A stretch of 36,136 nucleotides of DNA from Streptomyces coryli (GTDB lineage Bacteria > Actinomycetota > Actinomycetes > Streptomycetales > Streptomycetaceae), in NCBI RefSeq assembly GCF_011044975.1, contig NZ_JAAKZV010000058.1, positions 1 to 36,136 on the forward strand. The letters are read 5' to 3'. The translations under genes and the position numbers were made by a program. Below are positions 12,493-32,435 of this stretch, in pieces. The notes under the pieces were generated by a model. It did no database searches, was not told the origin of the DNA, and saw only the letters and a program-made list of their open reading frames with translations. The number at the start of each line of letters is the position of its first letter. The first letter of the stretch is position 1.

Positions 12493-12495
12493 CCG

Positions 12496-14210: not shown

Positions 14211-14229
14211 CGCACCTCCCTTGTTGAAC

Positions 14230-14266
14230 GGACCACTTGGGCGTTGAGTATCACTCAAAGTGGTCC
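14230..14266. promoter_or_regulatory. Candidate operator: inverted GGACCACTT repeats
   Basis: GGACCACTT at 14230-14238 is mirrored by AAGTGGTCC at 14258-14266, a perfect 9-bp inverted repeat with a 19-base spacer. Nested inside is a second palindrome, TTGAG-TATCA-CTCAA (14244-14258). On the minus strand the sequence GATACT in this spacer could be a -10 of the phosphotriesterase operon, though no good -35 is seen. A third GGACCACTT copy lies at 14385-14393 beside the promoter of the divergent gene. The set is the best candidate for the binding site of the GntR/UTRA regulator encoded in the operon. Confidence 0.55.
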
Positions 14267-15774: not shown

Positions 15775-17979
15775 GTGACGCAGCCGGTAATCGACGACGA
15801 CGGCACCTGTGTACGTATCGAGGCCACCGCCTACACCTGGCGCTGGTCGCGCGCCGACGACGGCTTCGTCTTCCGGGACGCGCGGGGACGCGAGGTCGTC
15901 CGCGGCACCGGGCAGCCCACGGTGCGAGTACGCCGCGATGGTGAGGAAGTGTGCTCGGCGGGGACGGCGACCGCCTGCGACGTCGACGGGGACCGGGTGC
16001 GGGTCACGTACGAAGGCGTGAACGGCACCGCCACCGTGCGCTTGTGTTGGCGGTTTGACGACGACGGGTGCTGGATCGAGCCGCTCGGTTACGCCGCCGC
16101 GCGGGACGAGGACATCGAGTCGGTGCACTGGTTCGCCACGGCCGGGCCTGACCCCCGGCCCACCCTGGCGGCCGCCTTCCTGGTCCACCCGGGCATCTGC
16201 GAGGCGCCCGTGCTCAGCCCGATCGTGCCCGCCATCACCGGCCTTGATCTGACCACCTGGCTGGGCCGCGGCGCCTGCGACGTGGACAGCCCGATGCAGC
16301 AATGGGGGCTGCCCGCCCACTACTTCGGCGGCTTTCACGCCGACGGGATGCCGCTGCTGGCCGGCAGGGTGGAGGACCGGGTGTCCGCCGCGTACTGCTG
16401 CGGGCTCGCCGAGCTGCCCGACGGCGATCTGATGCTGCGGATCGCGGGCGGCAGCGCGGCGCCGGTGCTGCGGCTGGCTGGCAAGCCGTGGTCCGCCGCG
16501 CGCGGGGAGCAGTTGCTCGGGCCGCGCTGGCGGATGTCCTTCGGCGCTGATCAGCGGGCCGCCGTGGCCGCGTACCAGCGCGCGCTCGTGGCCGCCGGGG
16601 TGGTGTCCGGCAGCCACCGGACCCCGGTCAAGGACGAGACGCTCGCGCTGCCGCAGTTCACCACCTGGGCCGCCCAGTTGGCCCTCGATGCCGACCAGGA
16701 GCGGCTCGATCAGGACAGCCTGGAGACGATCCACGCTGCATACCGGGCGACCGGCCTGACCCGCGGCCTCTTCGTCATCGACGACAAGTGGGAGGGCAGC
16801 TACGGCGTCCTCGAGCACGACACCAAGCGGCTGCCGGACTTCGAGGACTTCCTGCGCCGGGTGCGCGCCGACGGCGACCGGATCGGGCTGTGGGCGGCGT
16901 TCCTGCGCTGCGACGACCCCGGCGCGCTTGGGCTCACCGACGCGCACATGCTCCGCGGCGCCGACGGCCGGCCGATCGTGCGGCCCGGCGGCTACCGGCT
17001 GTACGACGTGACGCATCCGGAGACGGCGGCGGCGCTCACGGCCTGCATCGGGCGGTTCGTGCGCCGCTACCGGCCGAGCCTGGTGAAGTTCGACTTCGGC
17101 TACGAGCTGCCGTCGCTCGCCACCGCCCGGCCGCATGATCCGCGGCTCGGCGGCGAGCGGATCTTCGGCCACGCCGTGGAGCTGGTGGTCGACGCCCTGC
17201 GCGCGGCCGACCCGGACATCGCGGTCATGTACTACTCGCTGTCGCCGCTGTTCGCCTCCCGGCTGGACCTGGTCAGCGCCGACGACCTGTTCCTGGCCGC
17301 GGGCGAGATCCCGGCCGAGGTGAACCGGCGGCTGTACTTCTCCTCCGTGCTCACCGAGCTGGGGGTGGCGAGCTACGGCTCCTCCGGCTACGACGCCGCC
17401 GACCTCGAGCAGATCTGGTTCGACTCGATCGCCTCCGGACCGCTCGGCTCACTGGGGTCGTTCGCCACGGGCCGCCCCGCGGACCGGCTGACGCCGCATC
17501 AGGTCGCCGCGTACAACGGGCTGTCACGGCTCGTCCGCCCGAGCCCGCTCGGCACGGTGGCAGCGCTGGGCGGCGTCCCGCACGCGGTCTCCACCGGCGC
17601 CCGCGCCGCCTCCTGGGTCCGTTACGAGGACGGCGAGCCGGCGCTGGCGGCGCTGCGCCCGCACGGCTTCGCCGGCGTGCCCGGCCACGAACGCCTCGAT
17701 GACGTGGTGGAGACCGACGCCCAGGCGGCCGTCGCCTCCCTGACCGCGCAGCCCTTGACCCGCAGCGACCACCTCGCCGTCGTCGCCTTCCAGCCGGCCC
17801 GCCTCGTCGTACGCCACGAGGGGCCGGCCACCCAGGCACACCTCACGGCACACCTGCCGGGCGGCCGCACTCGCCCACTGGACACCTTCCCGGTCGAGCA
17901 CGGCCGCGTACGGATGGACGTGCCCGACCGGCTGCCCGACGGCACGCCGGTGGAGCACGTCGAGGTGCGCTTCGACTGA
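15775..17979 (+). CDS. Clan GH-D-like glycoside hydrolase (alpha-galactosidase-related)
   Basis: A 734-residue enzyme without a signal peptide. The first 250 or so residues look like a beta-sandwich (TAYTWRWSRADDGFVFRD...). A barrel follows, with LFVIDDKWEGSYG (about 335), LYDVTHPETAAAL (about 409) and SLVKFDFGYELPS. Asp440 in KFDFG is the expected nucleophile by analogy with GH27/GH36/GH31 enzymes. The acid/base is less clear; DLVSADDLF (about 500) is a candidate. GTG start at 15775 with AAGGG seven bases before it. It shares an operon with the FAD oxidoreductase. An oxidation-assisted route to a glycoside is possible, but the linkage and sugar are unknown. It could equally be a dedicated alpha-glycosidase of an unassigned family. 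Confidence 0.65.
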   Translation: MTQPVIDDDGTCVRIEATAYTWRWSRADDGFVFRDARGREVVRGTGQPTVRVRRDGEEVCSAGTATACDVDGDRVRVTYEGVNGTATVRLCWRFDDDGCWIEPLGYAAARDEDIESVHWFATAGPDPRPTLAAAFLVHPGICEAPVLSPIVPAITGLDLTTWLGRGACDVDSPMQQWGLPAHYFGGFHADGMPLLAGRVEDRVSAAYCCGLAELPDGDLMLRIAGGSAAPVLRLAGKPWSAARGEQLLGPRWRMSFGADQRAAVAAYQRALVAAGVVSGSHRTPVKDETLALPQFTTWAAQLALDADQERLDQDSLETIHAAYRATGLTRGLFVIDDKWEGSYGVLEHDTKRLPDFEDFLRRVRADGDRIGLWAAFLRCDDPGALGLTDAHMLRGADGRPIVRPGGYRLYDVTHPETAAALTACIGRFVRRYRPSLVKFDFGYELPSLATARPHDPRLGGERIFGHAVELVVDALRAADPDIAVMYYSLSPLFASRLDLVSADDLFLAAGEIPAEVNRRLYFSSVLTELGVASYGSSGYDAADLEQIWFDSIASGPLGSLGSFATGRPADRLTPHQVAAYNGLSRLVRPSPLGTVAALGGVPHAVSTGARAASWVRYEDGEPALAALRPHGFAGVPGHERLDDVVETDAQAAVASLTAQPLTRSDHLAVVAFQPARLVVRHEGPATQAHLTAHLPGGRTRPLDTFPVEHGRVRMDVPDRLPDGTPVEHVEVRFD

Positions 17980-18061: not shown

Positions 18062-18409
18062 CTAGAGGTCGCCGACGATGTTCACGGTGTTCTGCTCGGT
18101 GTCGATGAACGACGCGTAGACCATGCCGATCTCGGGGATCTCCGTGCGCCCGACGGACAGCCGGCCACCAGCCGCGGTGATTCTCTCGATCGTTTTGTCG
18201 ATGTCGTCGACGCGCACGACCAACCGGGGCTCTTGCAGGGCCTCATCACGGGCCGCGATCTCTCCGTTGATCGCGCCCGCCCGCACCTCGTTGGCGTAGG
18301 CATCCTCCTGACGCCAGCCGAAGACGTCACCGTAGAAGCGCCAGGCCCGCTGGACATCATCGGCGGGCAGCTGAAACCAGGTCACCCGGTTCGCCGGAAT
18401 CTCACTCAT
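18062..18409 (-). CDS. VOC/glyoxalase-family protein
   Basis: A 115-residue single VOC domain. It opens VTWFQLPADDVQRAWRFYGD, the typical first beta-alpha unit, and continues FGW, LVVRVDDIDKTIERITAAGG and a final FIDTEQNTVNIV strand. The start at 18409 has GAGGAGAAGG upstream. VOC proteins of this size include metal-dependent lyases, dioxygenases and antibiotic-binding proteins; nothing visible chooses between them. It lies 38 bases after the GH20 gene on the same strand and could be the last gene of that operon, or a separate small gene. A link to glycan use is not evident. Confidence 0.8.
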   Translation of the reverse strand: MSEIPANRVTWFQLPADDVQRAWRFYGDVFGWRQEDAYANEVRAGAINGEIAARDEALQEPRLVVRVDDIDKTIERITAAGGRLSVGRTEIPEIGMVYASFIDTEQNTVNIVGDL

Positions 18410-18447: not shown

Positions 18448-20052
18448 CTAACGGATGTTGCGCGTGTCGTGCGCGACCCCCGCCAGGTAGTCGGCCATCT
18501 CCACCGGGCGGCCGCGGACGCCCGGGCGGCGTTGCCACGGGTGTGGGCCGTCCAGGGGGCGGTACTCCACGTCCAGCGCGTCCAGGCGTGGGAGGTGGTG
18601 TTCGGTGAGGCGGGTCATGAAGGAGGCTGCGTCGCGGTCCGCGGAGCTCCACACCGTTTCGGCGAAGGCGCTCATGCGTGGGAAGGCCTGGAAGTCGAGG
18701 ACCCGGACATTGTCGATGGCTTCCGTCCACAGGCCGCACTGTGCGCCCAGGACGCGCTCCTCCGCCTGCGTGCCGGCCAGCTCTTCCGGCACCGGCTCGA
18801 AGGCGTACACCTCCTCGATCGGCAGCACCGTGCCGACCGGCACCGGCTCGTCGGGGCTCGCTGACTGGCGGTAGTCGAGGTAGACCTCGCGGGCCGGGCT
18901 GGTGATCACGTCGTGGCCGGCCCGCGCCGCTTTCACCGCGCCGTGGTGATCGCGCCACGACGCCACCGTGGCGCCCGGCGGCAGGCCGCCCTCCAGGATC
19001 TCGTCCCAGCCCAGGAGGCGGCGGCCGCGCGTCGCGAGGTGGTCGGAGACCTGGCCGATGAACCAGCTCTGCAGCTCGTCCTCGTTGCGCAGGCCGAGCG
19101 CGGCCATCCGCGCCTGCGCCGCCTCGGACGCCTTCCACTCCTCCTTCGGGCACTCGTCGCCGCCGACGCCGATCAGGGTGCCGGGGAAGAGCTCCACCAC
19201 CTCGTCGAAGACGTTCCGTACGAAGTCCAGGGTGGCGTCGGAGACGTTCAGCACCCGGGTGCCCACGCCCCAGCCGGTCGCCACCTGCAGCTGCTCCCCG
19301 GTGTTGCCCAGCTCCGGATACGCCGTGATCGCCGCCTGGGTGTGGCCGGGGACGTCGACCTCGGGGATGACGGTGACGTGCCGGGTCGCGGCGTGCGCGA
19401 CGATCTCGCGGATGTCGTCCTGGGTGTAGTAGCCGCCGTGCGGGCGGCCGTCGCCGCCGGGGTCCCAGCCCTGCTGCGACTCGTGCCGCCAGCAGCCGGC
19501 TTCCGTCAGCCGCGGATAGCGCTTGATCTCCAGGCGCCAGCCCTGGTCGTCGGTGAGGTGCAGATGCAGCACGTTGAGCTTGTGCAGCGCCATCAGGTCG
19601 ATCATCCGCAGCACGTCGCGCTTGGTGAAGAAGTGCCGGGCGACGTCCAGCAGTACGCCGCGCCAGCCGAATCGCGGCCGGTCCTCGATCTCCGTACAGC
19701 CCACGAGGACGGGGCCGGCCGACAGGGGAGCGCGCCGGAAGGTCTGCGGCGGCAGCAGCTGGCGCAGCGACTGCACGCCGTAGAAGACGCCCGCCGCGTC
19801 GCCTCCGGCGATCCGGATGCCGTCGGCCGCCACCGTCAGCTGGTACGTCTCCGCGCCGAGGCCGGCGTCCAGTGCCAGCTCGATGCCGCCGCGGCCTGGC
19901 GGGAAGTGGCAGCCGGTGGCGGGCGCCAGCTGCTCGCGCAGCACGGCGGCCACCGGGGCCAGTTCCGGGTCGGGGACGTGTAGCGGGGTGTCCGGGCCGA
20001 GGGCGAAGGTGCCGGTGCCGGGCCGGGTGCGCGACGGTGCCGGGATGATCAA
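18448..20052 (-). CDS. Beta-N-acetylhexosaminidase, GH20
   Basis: A 534-residue enzyme. An N-terminal GH20b-like domain (about 1-125, ending GVFYGVQSLRQLLP) precedes the barrel. The barrel has RGVLLDVARHFF, LNVLHLHLTDDQGWRLEIK, VIPEVDVPGHTQA and the catalytic pair Asp299-Glu300 in GVGGDECPK, used for substrate-assisted removal of terminal GlcNAc or GalNAc. There is no signal peptide, so it should act on imported oligosaccharides in the cytoplasm. The start is TTG 20052: AAGGAGG lies six bases upstream and no ATG or GTG fits better. Only one base separates it from the PhoD stop. It is the last glycosidase of the ROK-controlled operon. Confidence 0.93.
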   Translation of the reverse strand: MIIPAPSRTRPGTGTFALGPDTPLHVPDPELAPVAAVLREQLAPATGCHFPPGRGGIELALDAGLGAETYQLTVAADGIRIAGGDAAGVFYGVQSLRQLLPPQTFRRAPLSAGPVLVGCTEIEDRPRFGWRGVLLDVARHFFTKRDVLRMIDLMALHKLNVLHLHLTDDQGWRLEIKRYPRLTEAGCWRHESQQGWDPGGDGRPHGGYYTQDDIREIVAHAATRHVTVIPEVDVPGHTQAAITAYPELGNTGEQLQVATGWGVGTRVLNVSDATLDFVRNVFDEVVELFPGTLIGVGGDECPKEEWKASEAAQARMAALGLRNEDELQSWFIGQVSDHLATRGRRLLGWDEILEGGLPPGATVASWRDHHGAVKAARAGHDVITSPAREVYLDYRQSASPDEPVPVGTVLPIEEVYAFEPVPEELAGTQAEERVLGAQCGLWTEAIDNVRVLDFQAFPRMSAFAETVWSSADRDAASFMTRLTEHHLPRLDALDVEYRPLDGPHPWQRRPGVRGRPVEMADYLAGVAHDTRNIR

Positions 20053-20053
20053 G

Positions 20054-21592
20054 TCAGGCCTCCTTGAGATGCGGGCTGCCGGCCTCGATGACGTACGAGC
20101 CGGAGGTGTAGGCGGGTGCGCCGGGCGTCGATACGTACTTCAGTGAGCGGAAGTCGACGTGCATGGCCTCCGCGGTGACCCGGGTCCTGACGTAGCCGCG
20201 GCGGCCGTTGAAGAACTTCACATGCGGGTTCTCGGCCAGCAGGATGTCGGTGTTGGGGTACTTGTCGAGGCCGTCGCGGGCCGAGGTCACCGACGTGGTC
20301 ACCAGCTCCACGGCCACCGACTCCGAGTCCGGATCGCCGAAGTCGCGCTTCACCTCGCCCGCCCAGTGCGAGTGCACGTCGCCGGTGAGGACGACGCCGT
20401 TGCGGCGGTAGTTCGCGATCGCGTCAGTGACCTTCGTACGGGTGGCCGCGTAGCCGTCCCAGCCCTCGTTGGAGAACTCGACGGCGTCGCCGTTCTTCCA
20501 GTCCATCTGCATGAAGAAGACCTGCTGTCCGAGCAGGTCCCAGGTGGCGCCCGAGGTGCGCAGCCGGGAGTCCAGCCACGCCTCCTGGTCCGCGCCGAGC
20601 ATCGTGCGCTTGGGGTCCAGGCGCTCCGCGCAGTCCGCCGGGATCATCCCGGGCTTGCCGGTGCACGCGTACAGGTCGCGGTACAGGTGCGTGTCGAGCA
20701 TGTGCAGGTTGGCGACGGCGCCCCAGCGGATGGTCCGGTACAGGGTCATGTCCGGGCCGGTGGGGCGCTGTGCGCGGCGCAGCGGCATGTTCTCCCAGTA
20801 CGCCTGGAACGCCGCCGCCCGGCGCGGCAGGAACGGCGGGTCCGGCTGTTCGGGGATGTCGCCGGCCCAGCCGTTCTCGATGTCGTGGTCGTCGTAGACC
20901 GGCGCCCACGGCGCGATCGCGTGCGCCTGCTGCAGGTCGGGGTCGGAGCGGTGGAGGGCGAACCGCAGCCGGTAGTCGGCGAGCGTGAAGCACTCGCCGC
21001 CGGTCACCGGGCGGATCACGTTGGAGGCGTACGGGCCGTATTCGTAGAAGTAGTCGCCGAGGAAGGCGATCAGGTCCGGGGCGTCCTCGGCCATCCGCGC
21101 GTACGGGGTGAAGTAGCCGGTCTGCCAGTCGGAGCAGGAGGTGAAGGACAGGTTGAGGTCGCGGGTGCGGGTGCCCGGGCGGGGCGCGGTGACGGTGCGC
21201 CCCACCGGGGAGAGGTCCTGGCCGGTGCGGAAGCGGTAGAAGTACTCGCCGCCGGGCGCGAGGCCGTCGACCTCGACGTGCACGCTGTGTCCGGCGGCGG
21301 CCCGGGCCTGCGTCGTCCCCTCCCGTACCACCCGGCGGAAGGACTGGTCGGCGGCGACCTGCCACTGCACGGGCACGTCCGCGTCGGGCATGCCGCCGCT
21401 GCCGTCGAGGGCGAGCGGGTCGACGGCGAGCCGGGTCCACAGCACCACCCCGCCGGGGGTGGGGTCGCCGGAGGCGACGCCGAGGGTGAACGGGTCGGCG
21501 AGCCGCCGGCCGTCCGCCCGTGCCGGGGCGTTGATGAGCACGGGCAGGGCGACGGCACCGGTGGCCGCCATGAACGCGCGTCTGGATGGCAT
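20054..21592 (-). CDS. Tat-exported PhoD-family phosphodiesterase/alkaline phosphatase
   Basis: A 512-residue metallophosphoesterase. The N terminus SRRAFMAATGAVALPVLINA followed by PARA is a twin-arginine signal, so the enzyme is exported folded. A PhoD N-terminal domain follows (DPFTLGVASGDPTPGGVVLW, about 32-51, ...PVGRTVTAP). The catalytic part has SCSDWQTG, FLGDYFYEYG, VYDDHDIENGW and LTGDVHSHW, which hold the metal ligands. PhoD enzymes are Ca/Fe-dependent phosphomonoesterases and phosphodiesterases, and Bacillus PhoD attacks teichoic acid. Sitting inside a glycosidase and sugar-importer operon is unusual for a phosphate-starvation enzyme. ATG 21592 gives a complete Tat signal. Confidence 0.92.
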   Translation of the reverse strand: MPSRRAFMAATGAVALPVLINAPARADGRRLADPFTLGVASGDPTPGGVVLWTRLAVDPLALDGSGGMPDADVPVQWQVAADQSFRRVVREGTTQARAAAGHSVHVEVDGLAPGGEYFYRFRTGQDLSPVGRTVTAPRPGTRTRDLNLSFTSCSDWQTGYFTPYARMAEDAPDLIAFLGDYFYEYGPYASNVIRPVTGGECFTLADYRLRFALHRSDPDLQQAHAIAPWAPVYDDHDIENGWAGDIPEQPDPPFLPRRAAAFQAYWENMPLRRAQRPTGPDMTLYRTIRWGAVANLHMLDTHLYRDLYACTGKPGMIPADCAERLDPKRTMLGADQEAWLDSRLRTSGATWDLLGQQVFFMQMDWKNGDAVEFSNEGWDGYAATRTKVTDAIANYRRNGVVLTGDVHSHWAGEVKRDFGDPDSESVAVELVTTSVTSARDGLDKYPNTDILLAENPHVKFFNGRRGYVRTRVTAEAMHVDFRSLKYVSTPGAPAYTSGSYVIEAGSPHLKEA

Positions 21593-21603
21593 CCCGGGGG
21601 TCC

Positions 21604-22911
21604 TCACTTCAGCTTCGCGTTGCCGTCTTGGACCGCCTTGTCGGCGCCGTCCTGCGGGCTGGTCCTGCCGAGGTAGACGGAGTTCATGTTCTGGTTGAGG
21701 CCCTTCTCCGCCGCCGAGAAGCCGGACACGATCGGCAGGTTGAAGGTCTTGCCCTCGGACTCCTCGACGTACGGCTGGACGTCGATGCCCTTCTTCTTCC
21801 AGTAGTCCACGTAGGTGTGGTTGAGGCTGGTCAGCGCCGGGAAGACGTACCCGTCCTCGCCCATGATCTTCTGGGCGGCGGGGGTGGCGAGGAAGCGGGC
21901 GAGCTTCTTGGCCTCTTCGGGGTGCTTGGACTTGGCGTAGACGGCCTCGCTGAGCCCGTTGATGTTCACGGCGCGGCCGGCCGGGCCCTCGGGCATCGCC
22001 GCGGCGCCGATCTTGAAGTTGGCCTCCGGCTGCACGAACGGCAGCAGCGCGTTGTTGGCCGGGAAGATCGCCACCTGGCCGCGCTGGAACATCTCGGTGG
22101 CCTGCGCCGACGGCGGGTTGGTCTGGGCGGCGGGCGGGGAGACCTTCCACTTGTTGATCAGGTCGACGCCCCACTTGAGGGCCTCGACCTCCTTGGGACC
22201 GTTGAAGGCGAACTTGCCGAACGGCTTGTCGGTGATCTTGCCGCCGTTGGAGACCATCCAGTTCATCCACTGCGTCTGGTAGTGGTTCCAGGAGGCGAAG
22301 CCCCAGTTCTTGACCTGCTTGGCGTTGAAGCCGGACTCGCCGGGGTGCTTGCCGGACTCGTCGACGGTCAGCTTGCGCAGCAGCGGCAGGAAGGTGCCGG
22401 AGCCGTCGGGGGCCCAGGTGAGCTTCTCCGGCATTTCGACGCCGGCCTTCTTGAACAGGTCCTTGTTGTAGAGCAGTCCGACCGCGCCCCAGTCCTTGGG
22501 GACGCCGTAGAGCTTGCCCTTGTACGTGTAGGACTGCACGACGTTCTTGTTGTACTGGGACGGGTCCTTGACGACGTCGGAGACGTCGGCGAGCACGCCC
22601 TTGGTGACGAATTCGGGGAACTGCGGCACGCTCATCCAGAACACGTCGGGCGCGGTGCCGGCGACCACGTCGGCGGTGAGCTTGGTCCAGTACTGGTCCC
22701 AGGGCAGCAGCTCGATCTTGACCTTGATGCCCGGGTTCTTCTTCTCGAAGGCGGCCATCACCTTCTCCAGGCCCTTCTTCTGCTGCTCGTCCCAGGTGCG
22801 GTAGACCAGTTCGCCGTCGCCGGAGCCGCCGGTGCCGCCGCCGCAGGCCGCGCTCAGTCCGAGGAGGGCGCCGCTGAGCACGGCGGCGCACAGCCGGGTC
22901 GTTCTGTTCAT
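21604..22911 (-). CDS. Carbohydrate ABC transporter substrate-binding lipoprotein
   Basis: A 435-residue extracellular sugar-binding protein of the MalE/UgpB type (SBP_bac_1/8). The signal peptide ends in the lipobox LSAAC (Cys23), followed by a Gly/Ser linker. The mature part starts LVYRTWDEQQKKGLEKVM and has the usual family segments VVAGTAPDVFWM, KLYGVPKDWGAVGLLYNKDLFKKAG and EEAKKLARFLATPAAQKIM. Start at ATG 22911, with AAGGGC before it; a GTG five codons upstream has no ribosome site. Genes for both permeases precede it and PhoD follows 11 bases later. No ATPase gene is present, so the importer probably uses a shared MsiK-like ATPase encoded elsewhere. Confidence 0.9.
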   Translation of the reverse strand: MNRTTRLCAAVLSGALLGLSAACGGGTGGSGDGELVYRTWDEQQKKGLEKVMAAFEKKNPGIKVKIELLPWDQYWTKLTADVVAGTAPDVFWMSVPQFPEFVTKGVLADVSDVVKDPSQYNKNVVQSYTYKGKLYGVPKDWGAVGLLYNKDLFKKAGVEMPEKLTWAPDGSGTFLPLLRKLTVDESGKHPGESGFNAKQVKNWGFASWNHYQTQWMNWMVSNGGKITDKPFGKFAFNGPKEVEALKWGVDLINKWKVSPPAAQTNPPSAQATEMFQRGQVAIFPANNALLPFVQPEANFKIGAAAMPEGPAGRAVNINGLSEAVYAKSKHPEEAKKLARFLATPAAQKIMGEDGYVFPALTSLNHTYVDYWKKKGIDVQPYVEESEGKTFNLPIVSGFSAAEKGLNQNMNSVYLGRTSPQDGADKAVQDGNAKLK

Positions 22912-22933
22912 GGGTAGGCCCTTCACGTTGAAG

Positions 22934-23752
22934 TCACTTCAGGCCCGTGAGAACCACGGACCGGACGATGAACCGCTGGAAGAACAGGAAGATGAGCACC
23001 ATCGGCAGCAGGGCGATCAGGCTGCCGGCCATCATGAGGTTGTAGTCGCTGCCGATGTTCTGCTTGAGCGTGGCGATGGCGACCGTTGCGACCTTGGTGT
23101 CGTCGCTGCTGGTGATGATCAGCGGCCACAGGAAGTTGTTCCAGGTCGTGACGATGGTGATGATCGCGAGGGTGCCGAGCGCCGGCCGCGACAGCGGCAG
23201 CAGGATCCGCCACAGCACGGTCAGCGGCCCGGCCCCGTCGATACGGGCGGCGTCCTCCAGGTCGGCGGGGATGGTGCGGAAGAACTGCCGCATCAGGAAG
23301 ATGCCGTACGGGGTGCCGAGCAGATACGGGGCGAGCAGCCCGAACCAGGTGTTGACCAGCTCCATTTCCCGCATGATGAGGAACAGCGGGATCATGGTGA
23401 CGGCGTTCGGCACCATCATCGTGGCGAGGTAGCACCAGAACAGGAATTCGCGGCCCTTGAACTTCATCCGCGCGAACGCGTAGGCCGCGAAGGTGGTGAA
23501 GACCAGCTGCCCGAGGGTGAGCACCGTGGTCATGAGCGCGGTATTGCCGACGTAGGTCAGGAAACCCGAGTCGATGAGCTTGTCGATATTCGAGGTCGTC
23601 GGCGGAAAAGCGGGCAGCCAGGGAGCGGTGGAGAACAGCTGCCCACGGTCCTTGAACGCGGTGAGCGCGACCAGGAGATACGGAAACAGGGTGAGCGCCG
23701 CGCCTACCACCAGCGCCACGTATATGAGGGATTTCTTCGGGATGGTGCGCAT
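22934..23752 (-). CDS. Carbohydrate ABC permease, MalG type
   Basis: A 272-residue inner-membrane permease with six predicted TM helices. The first is LIYVALVVGAALTLFPYLL. The cytoplasmic EAA loop, which contacts the ATPase, reads EDAARIDGAGPLTVLWRILL (about 178-197). The protein ends RFIVRSVVLTGLK, as CUT1 MalG proteins do (xGLTxGAVKG-like). GAGGAGG lies upstream of ATG 23752. It lies 15 bases after the MalF-type gene and pairs with it to form the pore. The substrate is inferred to be an oligosaccharide or glycosyl-polyol from the neighbouring glycosidases. Confidence 0.9.
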   Translation of the reverse strand: MRTIPKKSLIYVALVVGAALTLFPYLLVALTAFKDRGQLFSTAPWLPAFPPTTSNIDKLIDSGFLTYVGNTALMTTVLTLGQLVFTTFAAYAFARMKFKGREFLFWCYLATMMVPNAVTMIPLFLIMREMELVNTWFGLLAPYLLGTPYGIFLMRQFFRTIPADLEDAARIDGAGPLTVLWRILLPLSRPALGTLAIITIVTTWNNFLWPLIITSSDDTKVATVAIATLKQNIGSDYNLMMAGSLIALLPMVLIFLFFQRFIVRSVVLTGLK

Positions 23753-23767
23753 GGAACGGCCGCCTCC

Positions 23768-24712
23768 TCAGCTGATGTCGTACGTCGTGCGCCGGTTGAA
23801 GAAGCGGACCTGGACCACGGTGAACACCAGGATCAGCGCGAAGAGCAGCATCGCCATCGCGGAGGCGTAGCCGAAGTCGAATTCCTGGAACGCGGTCTGA
23901 ACGATGCGGAAGTTGAGGACCTCCGTGGATTTGTCAGGGCCGCCCTCGGTCATCACATAGAGCGTGTCGTAGACCTGGAAGGAGCCGATGATGTTCGTCA
24001 CCAGCACGAAGAACATGGTCGGGTTCAGCAGCGGCAGCGTGATGTGGACGAATTGGCGGAGCTTTGATGCGCCGTCGGTGTCGGCCGCGTCGTACAGCTC
24101 GCCCGGGATGCCCTGCAGGCCGGCGAGGAAGAAGAGCATGTTGTAGCCGGCGTACTGCCAGACCTGCACGGCGGCGACGGCGGGCAGCGCGAAGGCGGTG
24201 TCGCTCAGCCAGTTGGGGCCGTCGACGCCGAAGACGCCGAGGAACTTGTTCAGCGCGCCGTTCGCCGGGTCGAAGATCCAGGTCCACACCACGCCCATCA
24301 CGATCGGCGTGGCCATCCACGGCACGACGAAGAGGGCGCGGAAGAACTTCACCCCGCGGATCTTCTGGTTCAGGAGGAGGGCGAGACCGAGCGCGATCAC
24401 GGTCTGCACGGGGATGGAGAGCAGGACGTACAGGACCGTCACCCACAGGGAGTGGCGCACGTCGCCGTCGCCGGCCAGCTTGCGGTAGTTCTCCAGGCCG
24501 ATGAAGGTCGGGCTGTCCAGCAGCTCCCACTTGAACAGGCTGACCACGGCGACGATCGCCACCGGCAGCAGCAGGAAGGCCAAGACGCCGAAGAGGCTGG
24601 GGGCCAGGAACAGGTACGGGGTGAGATTGAGCTTCCGGCGGCGCTTGGCGGGCGCGGGCCCGGTTGTGTCCGGCGCCGTCTCGCGCGGCTTGGCTATGGT
24701 CGTCGTCTTCAC
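23768..24712 (-). CDS. Carbohydrate ABC permease, MalF type
   Basis: A 314-residue permease. A basic cytoplasmic N-tail (PAKRRRKLN) is followed by LTPYLFLAPSLFGVLAFLLL, and six TM helices can be seen. The EAA loop is ELYDAADTDGASKLRQFVHI (about 210-229). YVMTEGGPDKSTEVL near the end is a family hallmark. GTG start at 24712 overlaps the GH36 stop (GTGA), showing coupled translation with the alpha-galactosidase. Forms a heterodimer with the MalG-type protein. Confidence 0.9.
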   Translation of the reverse strand: MKTTTIAKPRETAPDTTGPAPAKRRRKLNLTPYLFLAPSLFGVLAFLLLPVAIVAVVSLFKWELLDSPTFIGLENYRKLAGDGDVRHSLWVTVLYVLLSIPVQTVIALGLALLLNQKIRGVKFFRALFVVPWMATPIVMGVVWTWIFDPANGALNKFLGVFGVDGPNWLSDTAFALPAVAAVQVWQYAGYNMLFFLAGLQGIPGELYDAADTDGASKLRQFVHITLPLLNPTMFFVLVTNIIGSFQVYDTLYVMTEGGPDKSTEVLNFRIVQTAFQEFDFGYASAMAMLLFALILVFTVVQVRFFNRRTTYDIS

Positions 24713-26025
24713 TGCGGCGGCACCCCTGAGCTCGGGCGCAGCAGCCGTTTCGTGGTGGCCAGTCCCCAGGCGTCGAGGTCGCCGAGCCGGTCGCTGGAGC
24801 CGCGCAGTCCGGGGGAGGAGGCGATGAAGCCGGCCCAGTCCTCCCGCGCCTCCACGCCGGGGGCCGCGATGAGGCAGTCGGGGTCGTTCACCCACCAGCG
24901 GCCGTGCAGGAACTCTCGCGCCCGGCTGCTCAGTCGGGCGCCGTGCTGCGAGGGCTGGCTGATGTCGCCGGACCGGGGCTCGACCGCGGTGGAGGTGTCG
25001 GGGCCGACCCGCATGATGTCCACGTGCCCGAGGCTCGGGATGAGCGGCGCCCCGCAGCCGTGCAGGGTGGCGTCCGGCCCGGCGGCCTCCCGGATGATCT
25101 CCAGGCCGCGGCGGTACGCGGTGACCGGGTCGGCGTCCCCGTGCCGGCGGCCGGCGAGGGCACCGGCGTAGATGAAGTCGAGCTTGAAGTGCGAGAAGCC
25201 GTGGCCCGTCAACTCGCGGAAGACCTGGCCGAGATACTCGGCGGCCGCGGGATGGGTGACATCGAGGACGGCGAGGTCCTGGTCCCACATCCGGCCGGCG
25301 TCCGCGCCGCCGACGAGCCAGTCGGGGTGCTCGCGGAAGAGCCGGCTGCCGCTGCCGACGAGGTACGGGGCCAGCCAGATCCCGGCGCGTCTGCCGGTGT
25401 CGGTGATGCGGCGGGCGGTGGCGGCGAGGTTGCCGAAGCCGGGGCGGATGTCGAGCCAGTCGCCGATGCCGGCCTCGTAGCCGTCGTCGAGGAGGACCAT
25501 GCCGGCGTCGAGGCCGTAGCGATCGAGGTGGCCCAGCTCGGTGGCGATGTCGGCCTCGGTGACCTTGTCCCAGTAGCCGTACCAGCTGCACCACATGGGG
25601 TCCGCGACCGGTATCGGCCCGATGCCGGCCTGGGCGGCCAGGGTGTCCGCCCAGGCGGCGAGGGCGGCGTCGAGGCCGCCGTCGTGCGTGGTGTGGCAGA
25701 CCGGGCCATCGGCGGTGACGAGCAGCCGATTGCCCTCGGGCCTGGCCCGTATCGACGGGATGGCGTCGGGGTCCGGCGTGGAGAAGACGTGTGCGGGACC
25801 GCCGTCGCCGGGATCGAGGGCGAGCAGGCCCTCGCCCTGAAAGCTGCCGTCGGGGACCGGCGTCTCGGGCCGGTAGCAGAGAATCTGGATGGTGTCGGTC
25901 GCGGGGCGCGGCGGGCGTTCCCCGATCCGGTACGCGGAGGTGGGGCTCCACGACTGCCAGCCCTGCTCGAAGATCCGTGCCCGGCCGGGGTCGTGATCGA
26001 CCTCCGCCACCTCGCTGAACCGCAT
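24709..26025 (-). CDS. Alpha-galactosidase-like glycosidase, GH36
   Basis: A 438-residue melibiase-type enzyme. GWQSWSP (22-28), WCSWYGYWDKVTEADI (145-160), GMVLLDDGY (175-183), FKLDFIYAG with nucleophile Asp283, and GCGAPLIPSLGHVDIMRVGP with acid/base Asp343 are the GH36/clan D hallmarks. It is much shorter than the 700-residue GH36 enzymes, lacking most of the large N-terminal domain. No signal peptide, so intracellular. ATG 26025 is preceded by GGGAGAG at good spacing; GTG 26055 is the alternative. First gene of the ROK-controlled operon, directly upstream of the permeases, so it should cleave the imported sugar. Confidence 0.9.
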   Translation of the reverse strand: MRFSEVAEVDHDPGRARIFEQGWQSWSPTSAYRIGERPPRPATDTIQILCYRPETPVPDGSFQGEGLLALDPGDGGPAHVFSTPDPDAIPSIRARPEGNRLLVTADGPVCHTTHDGGLDAALAAWADTLAAQAGIGPIPVADPMWCSWYGYWDKVTEADIATELGHLDRYGLDAGMVLLDDGYEAGIGDWLDIRPGFGNLAATARRITDTGRRAGIWLAPYLVGSGSRLFREHPDWLVGGADAGRMWDQDLAVLDVTHPAAAEYLGQVFRELTGHGFSHFKLDFIYAGALAGRRHGDADPVTAYRRGLEIIREAAGPDATLHGCGAPLIPSLGHVDIMRVGPDTSTAVEPRSGDISQPSQHGARLSSRAREFLHGRWWVNDPDCLIAAPGVEAREDWAGFIASSPGLRGSSDRLGDLDAWGLATTKRLLRPSSGVPPQ

Positions 26026-26081
26026 GAACGCTCTCCCGGGGGTTGCCAGTTGCACTCAACAGGACTTAAGACTGGACGAGC

Positions 26082-26163
26082 TTTACGAAGGAGACCATCA
26101 TTAGTAGCCATCAACCAGGTTGTGGTCAACGGTTGTTGCAGGAATTTCCGAAGGAGACCTTCA
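26082..26163 (+). repeat. Duplicated 19-bp ribosome-site-like element
   Basis: TTTACGAAGGAGACCATCA (26082-26100) and TTTCCGAAGGAGACCTTCA (26145-26163) match at 17 of 19 positions and lie 63 bases apart. The second copy supplies the ribosome site for the ROK gene at 26168. The first has an identical AAGGAG but no ATG or GTG after it. The spacing is close to six turns of B-DNA, so the elements could also be paired protein sites. Confidence 0.5.
26101..26129 (-). promoter_or_regulatory. Promoter and ROK operator of the GH36-ABC-PhoD-GH20 operon
   Basis: On the minus strand, -35 TTGACC (26124-26129) and -10 TACTAA (26101-26106) are separated by 17 bases. The perfect palindrome CAACC-A-GGTTG (26112-26122) lies between them, the best place for a repressor to exclude RNA polymerase. 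Further short CAAC/GTTG inverted pairs occur at 26128-26136 and 26049-26060. The divergent ROK gene starts at 26168, so autoregulation from the same region is likely. Confidence 0.6.
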
Positions 26164-26167
26164 ATAC

Positions 26168-27328
26168 ATGGCTTCCGCAGCGCCTACCGGCGGTGACCTG
26201 TCCCGGCTGCGCCAGCTGAACTCGCTGGCGGTCTTCGGCGCCCTGCGCGCCGACGGACCGCTCACCCTCACCGCCGTCGCGGAGCGGACCGGGCTGTCCC
26301 GGCCGTCCACGAAGGAGGTGGTCGACCAACTCGTCGAGCTGGGCTGGGTGGTGGAGGTGGCGCCCTCCGCCGGCACCATCGGCCGCCCGGCGCGGCGCTA
26401 CCGCTTCCGCGCCGAGGCCGGCCACATCGCCGGCATCGACCTCGGTGTGCATACGGTCAGGGCCGTCGTATCCGACCTGGACGGCACCGTCCTCGCCGAG
26501 ACCCGGCAGGCGGTCACTCCGGCCACGCCCAACGACGAGCGGATCGCCGCGGCCGAGCGCGCGGTCGAGGGCTGCCTCACCATGGCGGACCTGGCCCGCG
26601 AGGACCTGTGGACGGTGGCCGCCGGCACCACCGGCATCGTCGACACGGCCGGCGTGGTGCGGATCTGCGCGGGCATCCCCGGGTGGGCGGGGGTCGACCT
26701 GACCGCCCGCCTCGGCGAGCTCTTTTCCTGCCCCATCGAGATCGAGAACGACGCCCGCCTGGCCGCCCTCGCCGAACGCGAACGGGGCGTCGCCAAGGGC
26801 ATCAGGGACGCGGTCTTCGTGCACGCCGGGCGGCGTACGGGCGCGGCGCTGGTCATCGGCGGGGAGGTGCACCGCGGCTTCGGCGGGGCGGCCGGCGAGA
26901 TCGGCCTGCATCCCGTAGCGCACTGGGAGCGCTCGGCCGACCACATCCACGACTGCCCTGCGGTCCCCGCCGGGGTGCCCAAACGCGACGCCGCCCGCCA
27001 CACCTTCGCCGCCGCCCGGGACGGCGACCCGGCCGCGCTGGCCGCGGTGGACCGCTACTGCGACGAACTGGCCGTCGGCGTCTCGGCGATGGTGATGACG
27101 CTGGATCCCGAACTGGTGGTTCTGGGCGGCGGCTTCTCACCGGCGGGGGACGTGCTGCTGCCCCGACTGCGAGCCCGCCTGGAGGAGGTGTGCCTGCGGA
27201 TGCCGGAGCTGCGGGCGTCCACCCTCGGAGAGGAGTGCGTCGCCGTCGGCGCGGTGGGGCGGGCGGTGGCGCGGCTGGACGCGAAGCACTTCGGGCTGAC
27301 GCCCGGGGGGATCGCGCCGGCTCGGTAG
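26168..27328 (+). CDS. ROK-family transcriptional repressor
   Basis: A 386-residue regulator. A winged helix-turn-helix at about 15-75 (LNSLAVFGALRADGPLTLTA, then LSRPSTKEVVDQLVELGWV) is followed by a ROK domain starting HIAGIDLGVHTVRAVVSDLDG. The sugar-site Asn-Asp is kept in IEIENDARLAALAE, and AAGEIGLHPV corresponds to the ExGH segment. The usual CxCGxxGCxE zinc motif is replaced by HDCPAVPAGVPKRDA, so structural zinc binding is probably lost. ATG 26168 has AAGGAG upstream. Divergent from the glycosidase operon, which it should repress until an imported sugar binds. Converges on the reductase gene with four bases between stops. Confidence 0.9.
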   Translation: MASAAPTGGDLSRLRQLNSLAVFGALRADGPLTLTAVAERTGLSRPSTKEVVDQLVELGWVVEVAPSAGTIGRPARRYRFRAEAGHIAGIDLGVHTVRAVVSDLDGTVLAETRQAVTPATPNDERIAAAERAVEGCLTMADLAREDLWTVAAGTTGIVDTAGVVRICAGIPGWAGVDLTARLGELFSCPIEIENDARLAALAERERGVAKGIRDAVFVHAGRRTGAALVIGGEVHRGFGGAAGEIGLHPVAHWERSADHIHDCPAVPAGVPKRDAARHTFAAARDGDPAALAAVDRYCDELAVGVSAMVMTLDPELVVLGGGFSPAGDVLLPRLRARLEEVCLRMPELRASTLGEECVAVGAVGRAVARLDAKHFGLTPGGIAPAR

Positions 27329-29433: not shown

Positions 29434-31122
29434 CTACAGCCCGAGCCGGGCGGGCTCCGGCCGGTGGACGCCGGCGGGGCGGTAGCCGAGCGGCTCGGCG
29501 ATGCCCAGGTGGTCGGCCAGCAGCCAGATGACGGCCAGCCACATCTCCGTACCCTGCAGGCCGGGTTCGCGCCGCGGACCGGTGCCGGGCTCCAGGGCGA
29601 AGGGGAAGCCCGCCCCGTCCTGCCAGTGGCCGAGCATCCGGTCCAGCTGCTCGCGGGCCCAGCGTCGGCCCTCGTCGAGGCGGTGCGGGGTCTGGCGGGC
29701 GCACAGCCACAGCGGGTGGATCACGTCCAGGACGTTGCAGGCGTTGCCCCGGCCCGGGCCGAAGAAGGCCGTGTCGCGGCTGTGGGCGAGGACCGTGTCG
29801 ACCGTCCGCTCCGGGTACGGCAGCGGCAGGTCGAACTGGGCGAAGGTGCCGCGGGTCGCGCGGTAGAAGCCGTTGACCGGCTGCAGCCAGCGGTCCTTCG
29901 CCGTCGGGCGGCCCCACAGGCCGTTGCCGGGGTTTGCGTGGGTGAGCAGCCACCCGAAGAGGGTGTCGGCGGCGGGGGCGCGCAGGCCGAAGTCCTCGGC
30001 GTTGCGCAGTACGGCCGTGCCGATGCCGTCCACCCAGTGGCCGCTGCGCCAGGCCTGCCGCTCCCAGGGCAGCGCGTTGAGGCGGGCGGTGAGCTGCTGC
30101 GGCGTCAACTCCTGGACGGCGCGCACGGGGTGGTCGAGGCGGGAGCCGAGGTGCTGCAGGGCGTAGCCCACGGAGAGGATGTGGTAGAGCGCCGCGTCGT
30201 CGTCCAGGGTCGGGGGAGTGGCTCCGTATTCGGGGATGAGGCCGGTGCCGGGGTCCTGGAGGCTGCGTAGGTGGGCGGTGAGATCCTCGGGCGCGAGCTG
30301 CGGTGGTGGGCCTCCGAGCAGCAGCTGGGCGACTTCGACTGCGTCGCACTGCGCCCGTACGGTCGGCTCGGCGCCGGGGCGGTCGGTGAAGAGCGGCATC
30401 CCGGCGGGGTCAGGGTCCGTGCAGCGCGCGAGGATATCGGGCGCCTGCTCGCGCGCTCGCTGCGTGAACCGGGCCAGCCGGTCGGCGAGTTCGGCGCCTG
30501 TCGCGCCTGTCGCGCCTGTCGCGCCTGTCGCGCCCGTCGCGCCCGTCGGCGCCCCACGCCGATCCCGCAGCCGCCGCGCCGGATTCCCCGCCGCCACCGA
30601 CCACTCCGGCAGGTCCTTCGTCACCACGGCGCCCGCGCCGATCACCGAGTGCGCCCCGATGCTCACCCCGTCCACGACGACCACCTGCGAGCCGATCCAC
30701 ACATCGTCCCCGATCTCGATGCCCTTCGAGGTCAGCGGCTGCTTGTACACCGGCCGCCCGGGATCGGTCGAGTGGTTGAAGCCGAGCGCCGAGCTGTGCG
30801 CGCCGATGCGCACGCCGTCGCCCAGGCGGACCTGGCCGCGTACGGTCGCGAAGGGGTTGACTGTGCAGTCGCGGCCCGCGGTCACCTCCCCGGTGACATA
30901 CGCGTGCGCGGCGACGTACGAGCGGCGGCCCAGGCGCAGCACGTCGGTGAAGACGCCGGCCCAGGGCGAGACGAAGACCTCATCCGCCAGCTCCAACTCG
31001 CCGCCCTGCTCCGCCAGTCGCCGCTGCCACGCCGCCTGCTCCGCCCGCTCCTCCGCGCTCGCCGAGGCGAAGAACAGCCAGGGGCAGTAGTCGTAGCGGC
31101 CGGGGCGTTCGCCGTCGCTCAT
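29434..31122 (-). CDS. Hexapeptide acyltransferase fused to an alpha/alpha-barrel-like domain
   Basis: A 562-residue two-part protein. Residues about 50-188 are a left-handed beta-helix acyltransferase: hexapeptide repeats (VTGEVTAGRDCTVNPFATVRG, GVRIGAHSS) and the ending IGDDVWIGSQVVVVDGVSIG...SVAAGNPARRL of the LacA/Maa type. A linker of six exact Thr-Gly-Ala repeats (193-210) follows. The C-terminal part (about 211-560) has helical repeats with LRSLQDPGTGLIPEYG and ALYHILSVGYALQHLG, as in alpha/alpha toroids of lyases, glycosidases or cyclases; I do not recognise the family. Its ATG overlaps the stop of the GH28 gene. Probably cytoplasmic. Confidence 0.75.
   Translation of the reverse strand: MSDGERPGRYDYCPWLFFASASAEERAEQAAWQRRLAEQGGELELADEVFVSPWAGVFTDVLRLGRRSYVAAHAYVTGEVTAGRDCTVNPFATVRGQVRLGDGVRIGAHSSALGFNHSTDPGRPVYKQPLTSKGIEIGDDVWIGSQVVVVDGVSIGAHSVIGAGAVVTKDLPEWSVAAGNPARRLRDRRGAPTGATGATGATGATGATGAELADRLARFTQRAREQAPDILARCTDPDPAGMPLFTDRPGAEPTVRAQCDAVEVAQLLLGGPPPQLAPEDLTAHLRSLQDPGTGLIPEYGATPPTLDDDAALYHILSVGYALQHLGSRLDHPVRAVQELTPQQLTARLNALPWERQAWRSGHWVDGIGTAVLRNAEDFGLRAPAADTLFGWLLTHANPGNGLWGRPTAKDRWLQPVNGFYRATRGTFAQFDLPLPYPERTVDTVLAHSRDTAFFGPGRGNACNVLDVIHPLWLCARQTPHRLDEGRRWAREQLDRMLGHWQDGAGFPFALEPGTGPRREPGLQGTEMWLAVIWLLADHLGIAEPLGYRPAGVHRPEPARLGL
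30493..30546 (-). repeat. Six 9-bp tandem repeats coding (Thr-Gly-Ala)6
   Basis: A nearly exact 9-bp unit (minus strand ACAGGCGCG, with small third-base changes toward one end) is repeated six times in frame. It codes the hinge between the acyltransferase and toroid domains. Unit number could change by replication slippage without breaking the frame, altering linker length. Confidence 0.85.
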
Positions 31123-32435
31123 CGTGCTCCGTTCCACGTCAGGCCTTCGACATTACGGACCTGGTCCGCCTCGGCCATCTCGCCGAAGGTGCAGCCCGCC
31201 ATCGTCAGCCCCCGGATCGGTGCGTGCGGATAGCCCTGCGCCAGCAGCGCCCGCCGGGCTCGGGCCACGCTCACGTCGCGGATGCCGATGTCGGACACCC
31301 GCGGCGGATAGCCGCCCGTATCGCCTTCGCCGCGATAGAAGTCGCAGGTGACGAACTCCTTCGTCAGATGCGTGACCGTGATGTCGTCCAGCTGGATGTT
31401 CTCGGCGAAGCCGCCGCGGACGGAGTTGGTCTTGATGTAGAGGCCGAAGTACAGGCCGGGGCCGCCGATGCGGCAGCGGCGGGCGAAGACGTTGCGGATG
31501 CCGCCGGTCATGTCGCTGCCCAGGGTGATGGCGCCGTAGCGGTGCCGCATCTCGCAGTCTTCGATGAGGATGTTCTCGCTGGGTACGTTCACCCGGCGGC
31601 CGTCGGCTTCGCGGCCGGACTTGATGGCGATGCAGTCGTCGCCCGCGTTGAAGGTGCACCCGCGGATGACCACGTCCCGGCAGGACTCCGGGTCGCAGCC
31701 GTCGTTGTTGGGGCCGATGCTGTCGACGGTGACGTTCTGCACCAGGACGTTCTCGCAGAGGACGGGGTGCATCACCCACATCGGGGAGCGGACGAAGGTC
31801 ACCCCCTCGATCAGCACCTTGCGGCAGGCGTATGTCTCCAGGAAGTTGGGGCGGAAGTGCCGGCCGGCCGCGTGCACCCGCTCCTCGACCGGGACGCCGT
31901 CCTCGGCCTGCTGCCACAGCCGCGGCCAGTCGTCCTCCTGTTGCGGCATCCCGGGCCGCCAGCCGAACTCCTCCTGCCCGGACCAGGGCCACCAGTGGGT
32001 CTCGTCCGCCCGGCCGTCGAGCACACCGGCGCCGGTGACGGCGATGTCCCGCTCGCCGTGGGCGTAGATGAGAGGGGCGTAGCCATACATCTCCACGCCC
32101 TGGAAGCGGGTGCGTACGGGCGGCAGATACGCGGCCGGGTCGCGGCTGAAGGCGAGTGTCGCGCCGGCCTCCAGGTGCAGGTCGACGCCCGAGCGGAGCC
32201 GGACGGCGCCGGTGGCATACGTGCCCGGCGGCACGGTCACATGGCCGCCGCCCGCGGCCGCGCACTCCTCGATCGCGGCCTTGAGGGCGGCCCTGCAGTC
32301 CGTGGTGCCGTCGCCGACCGCGCCGTATCCGGTGACGGGAAAATCCCGGTCGGGAAAGCGCGGCGGGCGCACCCGCGCGGCGATGGCGTCGGCCTGCTCC
32401 TTCGCGGCGGCCGCGGTGGTGGCGGTGGTGGTCAT
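31119..32435 (-). CDS. GH28-family protein with altered catalytic motifs, no signal peptide
   Basis: A 438-residue right-handed beta-helix of the polygalacturonase family. It opens DFPVTGYGAVGDGTTDCRAAL. The acid pair regions are kept: GPNNDGCDPESC (Asp245) and GDDCIAIKSG (Asp266, Asp267). However, the GHG motif reads RYGA (Tyr300 for His) and the RIK motif reads YIK (Tyr333 for Arg). Its neighbour paralogue keeps both. No signal peptide, so it should act inside the cell on imported oligomers, or has a different specificity such as rhamnogalacturonan or unusual galacturonides. The start at 32435 overlaps the paralogue's stop (ATGA). Confidence 0.85.
   Translation of the reverse strand: MTTTATTAAAAKEQADAIAARVRPPRFPDRDFPVTGYGAVGDGTTDCRAALKAAIEECAAAGGGHVTVPPGTYATGAVRLRSGVDLHLEAGATLAFSRDPAAYLPPVRTRFQGVEMYGYAPLIYAHGERDIAVTGAGVLDGRADETHWWPWSGQEEFGWRPGMPQQEDDWPRLWQQAEDGVPVEERVHAAGRHFRPNFLETYACRKVLIEGVTFVRSPMWVMHPVLCENVLVQNVTVDSIGPNNDGCDPESCRDVVIRGCTFNAGDDCIAIKSGREADGRRVNVPSENILIEDCEMRHRYGAITLGSDMTGGIRNVFARRCRIGGPGLYFGLYIKTNSVRGGFAENIQLDDITVTHLTKEFVTCDFYRGEGDTGGYPPRVSDIGIRDVSVARARRALLAQGYPHAPIRGLTMAGCTFGEMAEADQVRNVEGLTWNGAR

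Follow-up and report, generated by a model that had tools for sequence, protein, structure and literature searches.

Why should a sugar-uptake operon encode an exported phosphodiesterase? The question arises at positions 18448-27328 of a 36,136-nucleotide stretch of Streptomyces coryli DNA (contig NZ_JAAKZV010000058.1; hereafter the window), where a ROK-family regulator diverges from a tight operon with the order GH36, permease, permease, sugar-binding lipoprotein (SBP), PhoD and GH20 (Table 1). Sugar-utilisation operons of the ROK/CUT1 class combine a regulator, an importer and intracellular exo-glycosidases; the locus described here differs in enclosing a clade-specific exported PhoD, joined in relatives by a GH27 enzyme. 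We propose, at roughly even odds, that it is a substrate-induced scavenging operon for a phosphodiester-containing glycoconjugate decorated with alpha-galactosyl and N-acetylhexosaminyl (HexNAc) residues.

Operon layout and putative control

The ROK, GH36, importer, PhoD and GH20 genes named in an initial sequence-only reading were all recovered in place, with every family confirmed. By coordinates, the GH36 and first permease genes overlap by 4 bases, and the gaps that follow the first permease are 15, 22, 11 (SBP to PhoD) and 1 (PhoD to GH20) bases. The three-gene importer of that reading stands as an SBP with a PF01547 domain and two PF00528 permeases, the features of a CUT1 importer, with the correction that no ATPase gene lies between 18062 and 27328; the ATPase is assumed to be encoded elsewhere and shared. 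By eye, PhoD begins with the twin-arginine sequence MPSRRAFMAATG, the SBP leader contains a lipobox-like LSAAC, and no signal sequence is seen in GH36 or GH20.

Table 1. Features of the locus, with positions in the window
Feature	Position	Strand	Evidence
ROK-family regulator, divergent	26168..27328	+	PF00480 E 5.4e-35 and winged HTH
ROK-proximal operator-like site, overlapping ROK start	26143..26168	-	core GGTCTCCT
Operon promoter-like TTGACC-N17-TACTAAT	26100..26129	-	sequence
Operon-proximal operator-like site CTACTAATGATGGTCTCCTTCGTAAAGC, overlapping -10	26080..26107	-	pattern matches
GH36-type (T. maritima GalA-like) alpha-galactosidase, cytoplasmic (predicted)	24709..26025	-	PF02065 E 3.2e-12
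ABC permease, UgpA/MalF-like	23768..24712	-	PF00528; NCBIfam UgpA best, 161 bits, below cut-off
ABC permease, UgpE/MalG-like	22934..23752	-	PF00528; NCBIfam UgpE best, 141.8 bits, below cut-off
Sugar-binding lipoprotein (SBP), UspC-like	21604..22911	-	PF01547; 5k2x E 3e-66, 5k2y E 5e-66
Tat-type PhoD-family metallophosphoesterase, operon-type clade	20054..21592	-	PF09423 E 4.5e-101, PF16655; 2yeq E 1e-138
GH20 beta-N-acetylhexosaminidase, cytoplasmic (predicted)	18448..20052	-	PF00728 E 3e-114, PF02838; 3rcn E 2e-169
VOC/glyoxalase-fold gene, 3' of GH20, same strand	18062..18409	-	PF00903

The GH36 protein matches the Thermotoga maritima alpha-galactosidase GalA (1zy9) and 5m0x at E 2e-54. Only the catalytic region aligns with GalA and the specificity is a prediction, although both catalytic Asp motifs are shared: KLDF corresponds to KIDF of 1zy9, and GPDT is the same in both proteins (GPAT in the 6gta chain), and we take their aspartates to be the nucleophile and acid/base. 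The GGDE motif of GH20, containing the Asp-Glu pair, is aligned with 3rcn.

A promoter-like pattern of the form found in the window is present in 40 of 42 ROK–operon gaps, and the core of the ROK-proximal site recurs by eye near ROK in many of them. All 16 matches to the operator pattern fall inside the ROK gaps of these loci, in 10 of the 13 relative genomes searched, and a reversed-pattern control gave a single match. The conserved operator-like site over the promoter supports the earlier description of the operon as ROK-controlled, and in our model the ROK protein would occupy the site over the -10 and keep the operon off when substrate is absent. No Pho box was recognised in the window operon; the scan is uninformative because it rarely scores upstream of 44 paralogue PhoDs either. 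The best-scoring 'Pho boxes' of operon-type genes coincide with the PhoD start codon.

The VOC gene probably lies outside the system, with no VOC-family match beside orthologues of the operon. Genes upstream in the window (GntR, SDR, FGGY, SIS, PTE, FAD oxidoreductase and GH31/36-like) were rejected as partners, as they do not stand beside orthologues; exceptions at the level of family are a 32% PTE-like match at L001 and a GntR-like match at both L029 and L138. Other neighbour families that recur outside the operon do so mostly in Nonomuraea loci and carry no functional hint.

Conservation and separability of the PhoD linkage

A ROK orthologue is present at all 38 orthologous loci. At 35 of these, spanning eight genera by record title, PhoD directly follows the SBP and an exported GH27 alpha-galactosidase is also encoded; GH20 follows in 33 of the 35, with the remaining two stopping at a contig edge. 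The GH27 is absent from the window, and its secretion in the 35 relatives adds a second exported enzyme to the alpha-galactose theme. In an order sample of 297 genomes, 38 carry the SBP together with an operon-type PhoD, 5 the PhoD without the SBP and 254 neither. An operon-type PhoD is thus found in 38/38 SBP genomes (Fisher p 6e-43, for genomes related to one another), and it adjoins the SBP in 29/30 loci of this sample. Loci of other PhoDs have none of these gene families (0/66, within flanking stretches of roughly 1 to 1.5 kb). On the adjacency counts, the 0/66 control and the order-sample co-occurrence, we reject the idea that PhoD lies here by chance. The linkage between the genes, which the sequence-only reading had offered as inference, is now backed by 35 of 38 loci and by every SBP genome of the order sample; absence of PhoD from most orthologous operons, named by that reading as the outcome that would count against it, is not what is found. 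No description of a PhoD–alpha-galactosidase–ABC transporter operon was encountered among titles and abstract openings of the open-licence literature, a negative that carries little weight.

The importer can do without PhoD, which is absent from the operons at L001, L131 and L025. The first two are the nearest operon relatives of the window, and the genome of L001 has no PF09423 match; at L025 an apparent GH27 3' stub lies, by eye, between SBP and GH20. The operon of genome G002 lacks PhoD-GH27, and a second, pruned locus in that genome carries both, alongside a ROK gene, both operator-like sites, a GH36 5' stub and an SBP 3' stub. This second copy resembles a Nonomuraea locus, which suggests that G002 reacquired PhoD-GH27 under unchanged control. 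In the reverse direction, the five order-sample genomes with PhoD and no SBP include three whose PhoD frame is intact while the surrounding operon has decayed or is gone; L218 and L220 retain an intact PhoD with the SBP reduced to stubs. PhoD and importer can each occur without the other.

Importers lacking PhoD at three loci, PhoD lacking an importer in 5 of 43 genomes and intact PhoD beside mere SBP stubs are all compatible with PhoD being an independent phosphate-acquisition enzyme or general phosphodiesterase, which would share the promoter of an alpha-galactoside/HexNAc uptake operon and not its substrate. We consider this unlikely in view of the upstream operator-like site and the 11-base distance from the SBP, the operon-type PhoD in every order-sample SBP genome, the placement of PhoD-GH27 under a second ROK in G002, and the lack of such genes around other PhoDs.

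The metal site of operon-type PhoDs

Both domains of the window PhoD score above cut-off (PF09423 338.8 bits, PF16655 110.8 bits), and the operon-type PhoDs form a separate clade (SH-aLRT 100). The window protein shares with Bacillus subtilis PhoD (2yeq) its family, a twin-arginine leader (by eye) and six of seven mutagenised metal ligands, but replaces Asn272 and stops before the C-terminal cap helix; its gene also differs in having an operator-like site, no recognisable Pho box and a link to sugar uptake. The ligands C180, D207, D265, D266, N271 and D436 are identical in the window and the operon-type rows, two of which are gapped at D436. At Bacillus H204, E268 and N272 the window has F177, D237 and G241, and the corresponding changes H204F, E268D and N272A/G occur in 43/43 operon-type PhoDs. 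Position 272, at which the Ca-B ligand was taken to be N or sometimes D, is Ala in 32 and Gly in 11 (including the window), and Ala or Gly also in the five importer-less genomes. All 42 paralogues retain Asn272, with F204 in two, D268 in two and A/G272 in none; Asn272 is likewise invariant in a further 27 PhoD sequences, four of which have F204. Tyr210 is conserved in operon-type PhoDs and may serve as the Fe tyrosine.

So uniform a set of replacements, with A/G272 in 0/42 paralogues and Asn272 in all 27 further sequences, could reflect a protein that has left three-metal chemistry behind, whether for two-metal hydrolysis of another ester or for binding only. Conservation of the six other ligands makes this improbable, as does the solved PhoD-family protein 9uya, which in alignment has Ala at 272 as well. 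An operon-type PhoD acting on phospholipids or GIPC could draw on soil fungi and plants, which provide such lipids. Yet beta-HexNAc head groups suited to GH20 are, to our knowledge, not typical of them, and among solved structures the nearest is B. subtilis PhoD at 467 bits, in a comparison that left S. chromofuscus PLD outside. A lipid substrate seems improbable, despite S. chromofuscus PLD belonging to the PhoD family (PMC4223295, excerpt).

According to the excerpt of the same article, the N272A substitution left Bacillus PhoD without activity on pNPP. The missing N272 argues for caution on wall-teichoic-acid (WTA) cleavage and, like the separability of the modules, counts against simple teichoic-acid cutting. 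In B. subtilis, PhoD is implicated with GlpQ in WTA degradation under phosphate starvation. Cleavage of glycosylated WTA by this enzyme is also reported, second-hand, in an excerpt of PMC7086022, which cites another paper. Transfer of this activity to the window protein, as first supposed, is unsupported because the operon PhoDs branch apart as their own clade and lack a Ca ligand that the Bacillus enzyme needs.

Candidate pathway and substrate

Our data are consistent with a pathway in which an inducer sugar relieves repression and PhoD, exported via Tat, would cut phosphodiester links of an extracellular glycoconjugate, assisted outside the cell in most relatives by the exported GH27. The UspC-like lipoprotein and two permeases, powered by an ATPase from elsewhere, would import an alpha-galactosyl/N-acetylhexosaminyl fragment, from which GH36 would take off alpha-galactose and GH20 beta-HexNAc inside the cell. 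The likeliest substrate class, at about one chance in three, comprises teichoic-acid-like wall polymers made of glycosylated polyol phosphates, from the producer or from other organisms, and this is the weakest step of the proposed explanation. The earlier idea of teichoic-acid scavenging is partly supported: the PhoD linkage and the alpha-galactose theme hold up, and a Bacillus-type PhoD activity is unsupported. Excerpts describe a poly(GroP-GalNAc-beta-GroP) polymer in Nocardiopsis halotolerans (PMC6801904) and galactosylated ribitol WTA with GlcNAc in the chain in Listeria (PMC6779246), and polymers of the right kind therefore exist. In Streptomyces hygroscopicus, however, the lipoteichoic acid, said in the abstract of PMC3196553 to be close to its WTA, has alpha-linked HexNAc, which GH20 should not cut and which speaks against the proposed explanation. 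The absence of a polyol kinase or dehydrogenase from the operon also counts against the proposed explanation.

More tentatively, operon-type PhoDs may constitute an unrecognised subfamily whose rebuilt, Ca-B-less site is dedicated to phosphodiesters of galactosylated/HexNAc glycopolymers, within a sugar-induced locus that would use phosphate-linked wall polymers for carbon rather than solely as an emergency source of phosphate. Teichoic-acid-like polymers are plentiful in soil as dead cell walls, and filamentous actinomycetes would then possess a dedicated, inducible carbon-scavenging route for them. The PhoD family, commonly seen as phosphate-starvation enzymes, would gain a branch that belongs to sugar operons and has a different active site. 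The binding protein, the operator and the PhoD clade markers allow a direct test in cultured Nonomuraea or Actinomadura species.

The closest solved protein to the SBP is UspC of the mycobacterial UspABC importer (5k2y, 228 bits, with the runner-up at 118). The UspC ligand residues D145, Q218 and Y292 cannot all be placed on the alignment with one numbering offset. The excerpt of PMC4929945 describes uspABC as an operon of three genes, with neither hydrolases nor PhoD, whereas the window operon has both, and UspC as favouring free over N-acetylated amino sugars, a preference that counts against the proposed explanation. Among more distant SBP relatives, four of the five best-scoring lie near a GH36-like gene and the fifth lies by GH4.

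Conservation of the operon and of its PhoD gene

The window PhoD is part of a genuine and conserved system, a variant form of sugar-uptake operon that follows a conserved operator-like site. The gene set that the sequence-only reading had described was accurate, with all seven gene families assigned by Pfam (Table). The minus-strand run from GH36 to GH20 contains one 4-base overlap and otherwise gaps of 1 to 22 bases by coordinates, with the ROK gene divergent from it. GH36 belongs to the short T. maritima GalA class and contains the two catalytic motifs, and GH20 is matched by 3rcn over nearly its whole length. The nearest solved relatives of the binding lipoprotein (SBP) are UspC proteins (228 bits; the next scores 118), and that of PhoD is B. 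subtilis PhoD.

Features of the window
Feature	Coordinates	Strand	Content or remark
Operon with ROK gene	18448-27328	- (ROK divergent)	Pfam: GH20, PhoD, SBP_bac_1, BPD_transp_1 x2, Melibiase, ROK
Operator-like site	26080-26107		
VOC/glyoxalase-fold gene	18062-18409	-	
734-aa protein	15775-17979	+	adjoins FAD_oxidored gene
Compact cluster	9561-14258	-	GntR/UTRA, SDR, FGGY kinase, SIS, phosphotriesterase-family protein
GH28 pair and neighbour	31119-35616	-	two adjacent GH28 (pectinase-type) genes; protein with sub-threshold GH127 similarity only

A single scan of genome contigs with the window SBP, which reaches close relatives only, yielded 38 loci, by record title one from Actinacidiphila and 37 from genera that we take to belong to the Streptosporangiales. 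ROK, GH36, both permeases and SBP occur together in all 38, and GH20 in 36, the remaining two stopping at a contig edge. PhoD is kept in 35, and every one of these also carries GH27, an exported alpha-galactosidase (Melibiase_2 in the three tested by Pfam, with NPCBM too in two of them). L001, L013 and L025 have neither PhoD nor GH27. Two loci were added to the 38: L131, from the Streptomycetaceae draw, lacks PhoD, and L138 has PhoD without GH27, as in the window. Close SBPs were found in 2 of 394 Streptomycetaceae genomes (E 1e-100), in 3 of 394 genomes class-wide at at least 66% identity, the draw's own centre among the three, and in 38 of the 297 genomes of the order sample (E 1e-120). PhoD adjoins the SBP in 29 of the 30 order loci listed, genome G002 being the odd one out. 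Operon-type PhoDs (E 1e-185) occur in 43 order genomes, namely all 38 with the SBP and five more, in a 297-genome draw that is apparently the same as for the SBP count; this co-occurrence has a Fisher p of 6e-43 among genomes that are related and hence not independent. The flanks compared at 66 loci of other PhoDs, about 1 to 1.5 kb, contained no SBP, permease, GH36, GH20, GH27 or ROK homologue.

Among 42 collected ROK-GH36 or ROK-PhoD gaps, 40 contain a promoter-like TTG(A/C)C-spacer-TA.TAAT element. By eye, an operator-like site overlaps this element and a second site near ROK is often seen. The pattern TAATGWAGNNCTCCTNNGTAA, at no more than two mismatches, gave 16 matches in 10 of the 13 genomes searched (none in G001, G132 or G008), all 16 inside the ROK gaps, and the reversed-pattern control gave one. 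Since the pattern was derived from the very gaps later matched, matches there are expected and the actual result is their absence elsewhere. We infer that ROK binds at the operator-like site.

A changed metal-ligand position in the operon PhoD

According to PMC4223295, the pNPP activity of B. subtilis PhoD is abolished by C180A, D265A, N271A, N272A and D436A and drastically reduced by D207A and D266A. The window PhoD keeps C180, D207, D265, D266, N271 and D436, and has Gly241 in place of N272. At this position the 43 distinct operon-type genes (labelled before the tree by at least 60% identity to the window PhoD) carry Ala (32) or Gly (11), against Asn in all 42 distinct paralogues (PhoDs close enough to be detected in a limited number of genomes, either with the window protein or with PF09423); Asn is also found in all 27 further PhoD sequences, from 25 Actinomycetes loci. 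H204F and E268D are each present in 43/43 operon-type genes versus 2/42 paralogues. Replacement of N272 could reflect loss of activity or a change in either the metal site or the substrate; the solved protein 9uya, which also has Ala here, cautions against calling operon-type PhoD dead. As a Ca ligand position is changed throughout the clade, the activity of B. subtilis PhoD on teichoic acid, taken as a guide in the sequence-only reading, cannot simply be passed to the operon PhoD.

Apparent loss and regain of PhoD, and its separability

Operon-type PhoDs form a single clade (43 rows, SH-aLRT 100) with the window PhoD as its deepest branch, in a tree made by a quick method under one model, where the program flagged long branches meeting among paralogues. 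In a six-protein operon tree the window groups with L001 and L131, both without PhoD, and three PhoD state changes are required, most simply read as losses. Shuffled labels did as well as the real ones in 46 of 500 trials, so the operon tree alone does not demonstrate clustering. L025 and genome G002 reveal the manner in which PhoD was lost. At L025 an apparent GH27 3' end is left between SBP and GH20 (by eye).

The best individual indication that the operon has a need for PhoD and GH27 is a second copy in G002. One locus of this genome, L013, holds the operon without PhoD-GH27; the other, L137, comprises a second ROK gene with both sites, then remnants of GH36 (5' stub) and of SBP (3' stub), and after these PhoD and GH27. 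Among 40 loci compared, L137 is closest to a Nonomuraea ceibae locus rather than to L013, which suggests that it was acquired and then pruned to the genes missing from L013. The two loci are complementary in gene content, the operon being split over both. A second operon-type PhoD copy also lies beyond ROK in Nonomuraea terrae (L016, 2-1393) and N. aridisoli (L021, 3-1406), and these extra copies form their own branch inside the clade.

Five genomes of the order sample have an operon-type PhoD, with the clade residues kept, and no SBP. G917 keeps PhoD-GH27, in G971 and G980 the PhoD frame is intact and SBP is reduced to stubs, with GH27 and GH20 fragmentary in G971, G975 has PhoD alone, and in G1008 the gene lies on a contig of 5.5 kb. 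The operator pattern was absent from the stretch around PhoD in all five. As PhoD without importer and importer without PhoD both occur, each can be useful alone. This leaves room for PhoD as a hitchhiker, an independent gene travelling with the uptake operon and sharing no substrate with it; we favour a role that is shared yet separable.

Substrate and neighbouring genes

Alpha-galactose is indicated as part of the substrate by GH36, the relatives' GH27 and distant SBP relatives, beta-HexNAc by GH20 and a phosphodiester by PhoD. Of the five SBPs that score best after the orthologues, four have a GH36-like gene nearby (one of these four genes checked by Pfam) and one lies by GH4; a sixth distant locus, L136 (35%), has a GH36-like gene too and was selected because the match was already visible. 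These relatives may represent a wider alpha-galactoside importer family. SBP relatives of 35-41% identity lie near GH36-like genes at L132, L133, L134, L139 and L136, with LacI-like regulators nearby at L133 and L134 (by eye).

Such components do occur in wall polymers. Nocardiopsis halotolerans has poly(glycerol phosphate-GalNAc-beta-glycerol phosphate) (PMC6801904) and Listeria a ribitol-type polymer with in-chain GlcNAc and galactose decoration (PMC6779246); the HexNAc of the S. hygroscopicus polymer is alpha-linked (PMC3196553), which is at odds with GH20. The enzyme set as a whole was not matched to any one known polymer, and the teichoic-acid-like substrate proposed earlier therefore remains a candidate.

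The VOC/glyoxalase-fold gene lies 38 bases past GH20 on the shared strand and has no counterpart beside the orthologous loci compared. The compact cluster looks like a separate sugar-catabolic operon and is not conserved alongside the ROK–PhoD operon in orthologous loci. For the 734-aa protein, no Pfam or NCBIfam model passed the thresholds applied; its best solved relative is the GH31 alpha-galactosidase 8j53 (38.8 bits), and it is thus probably a divergent clan-D glycosidase.
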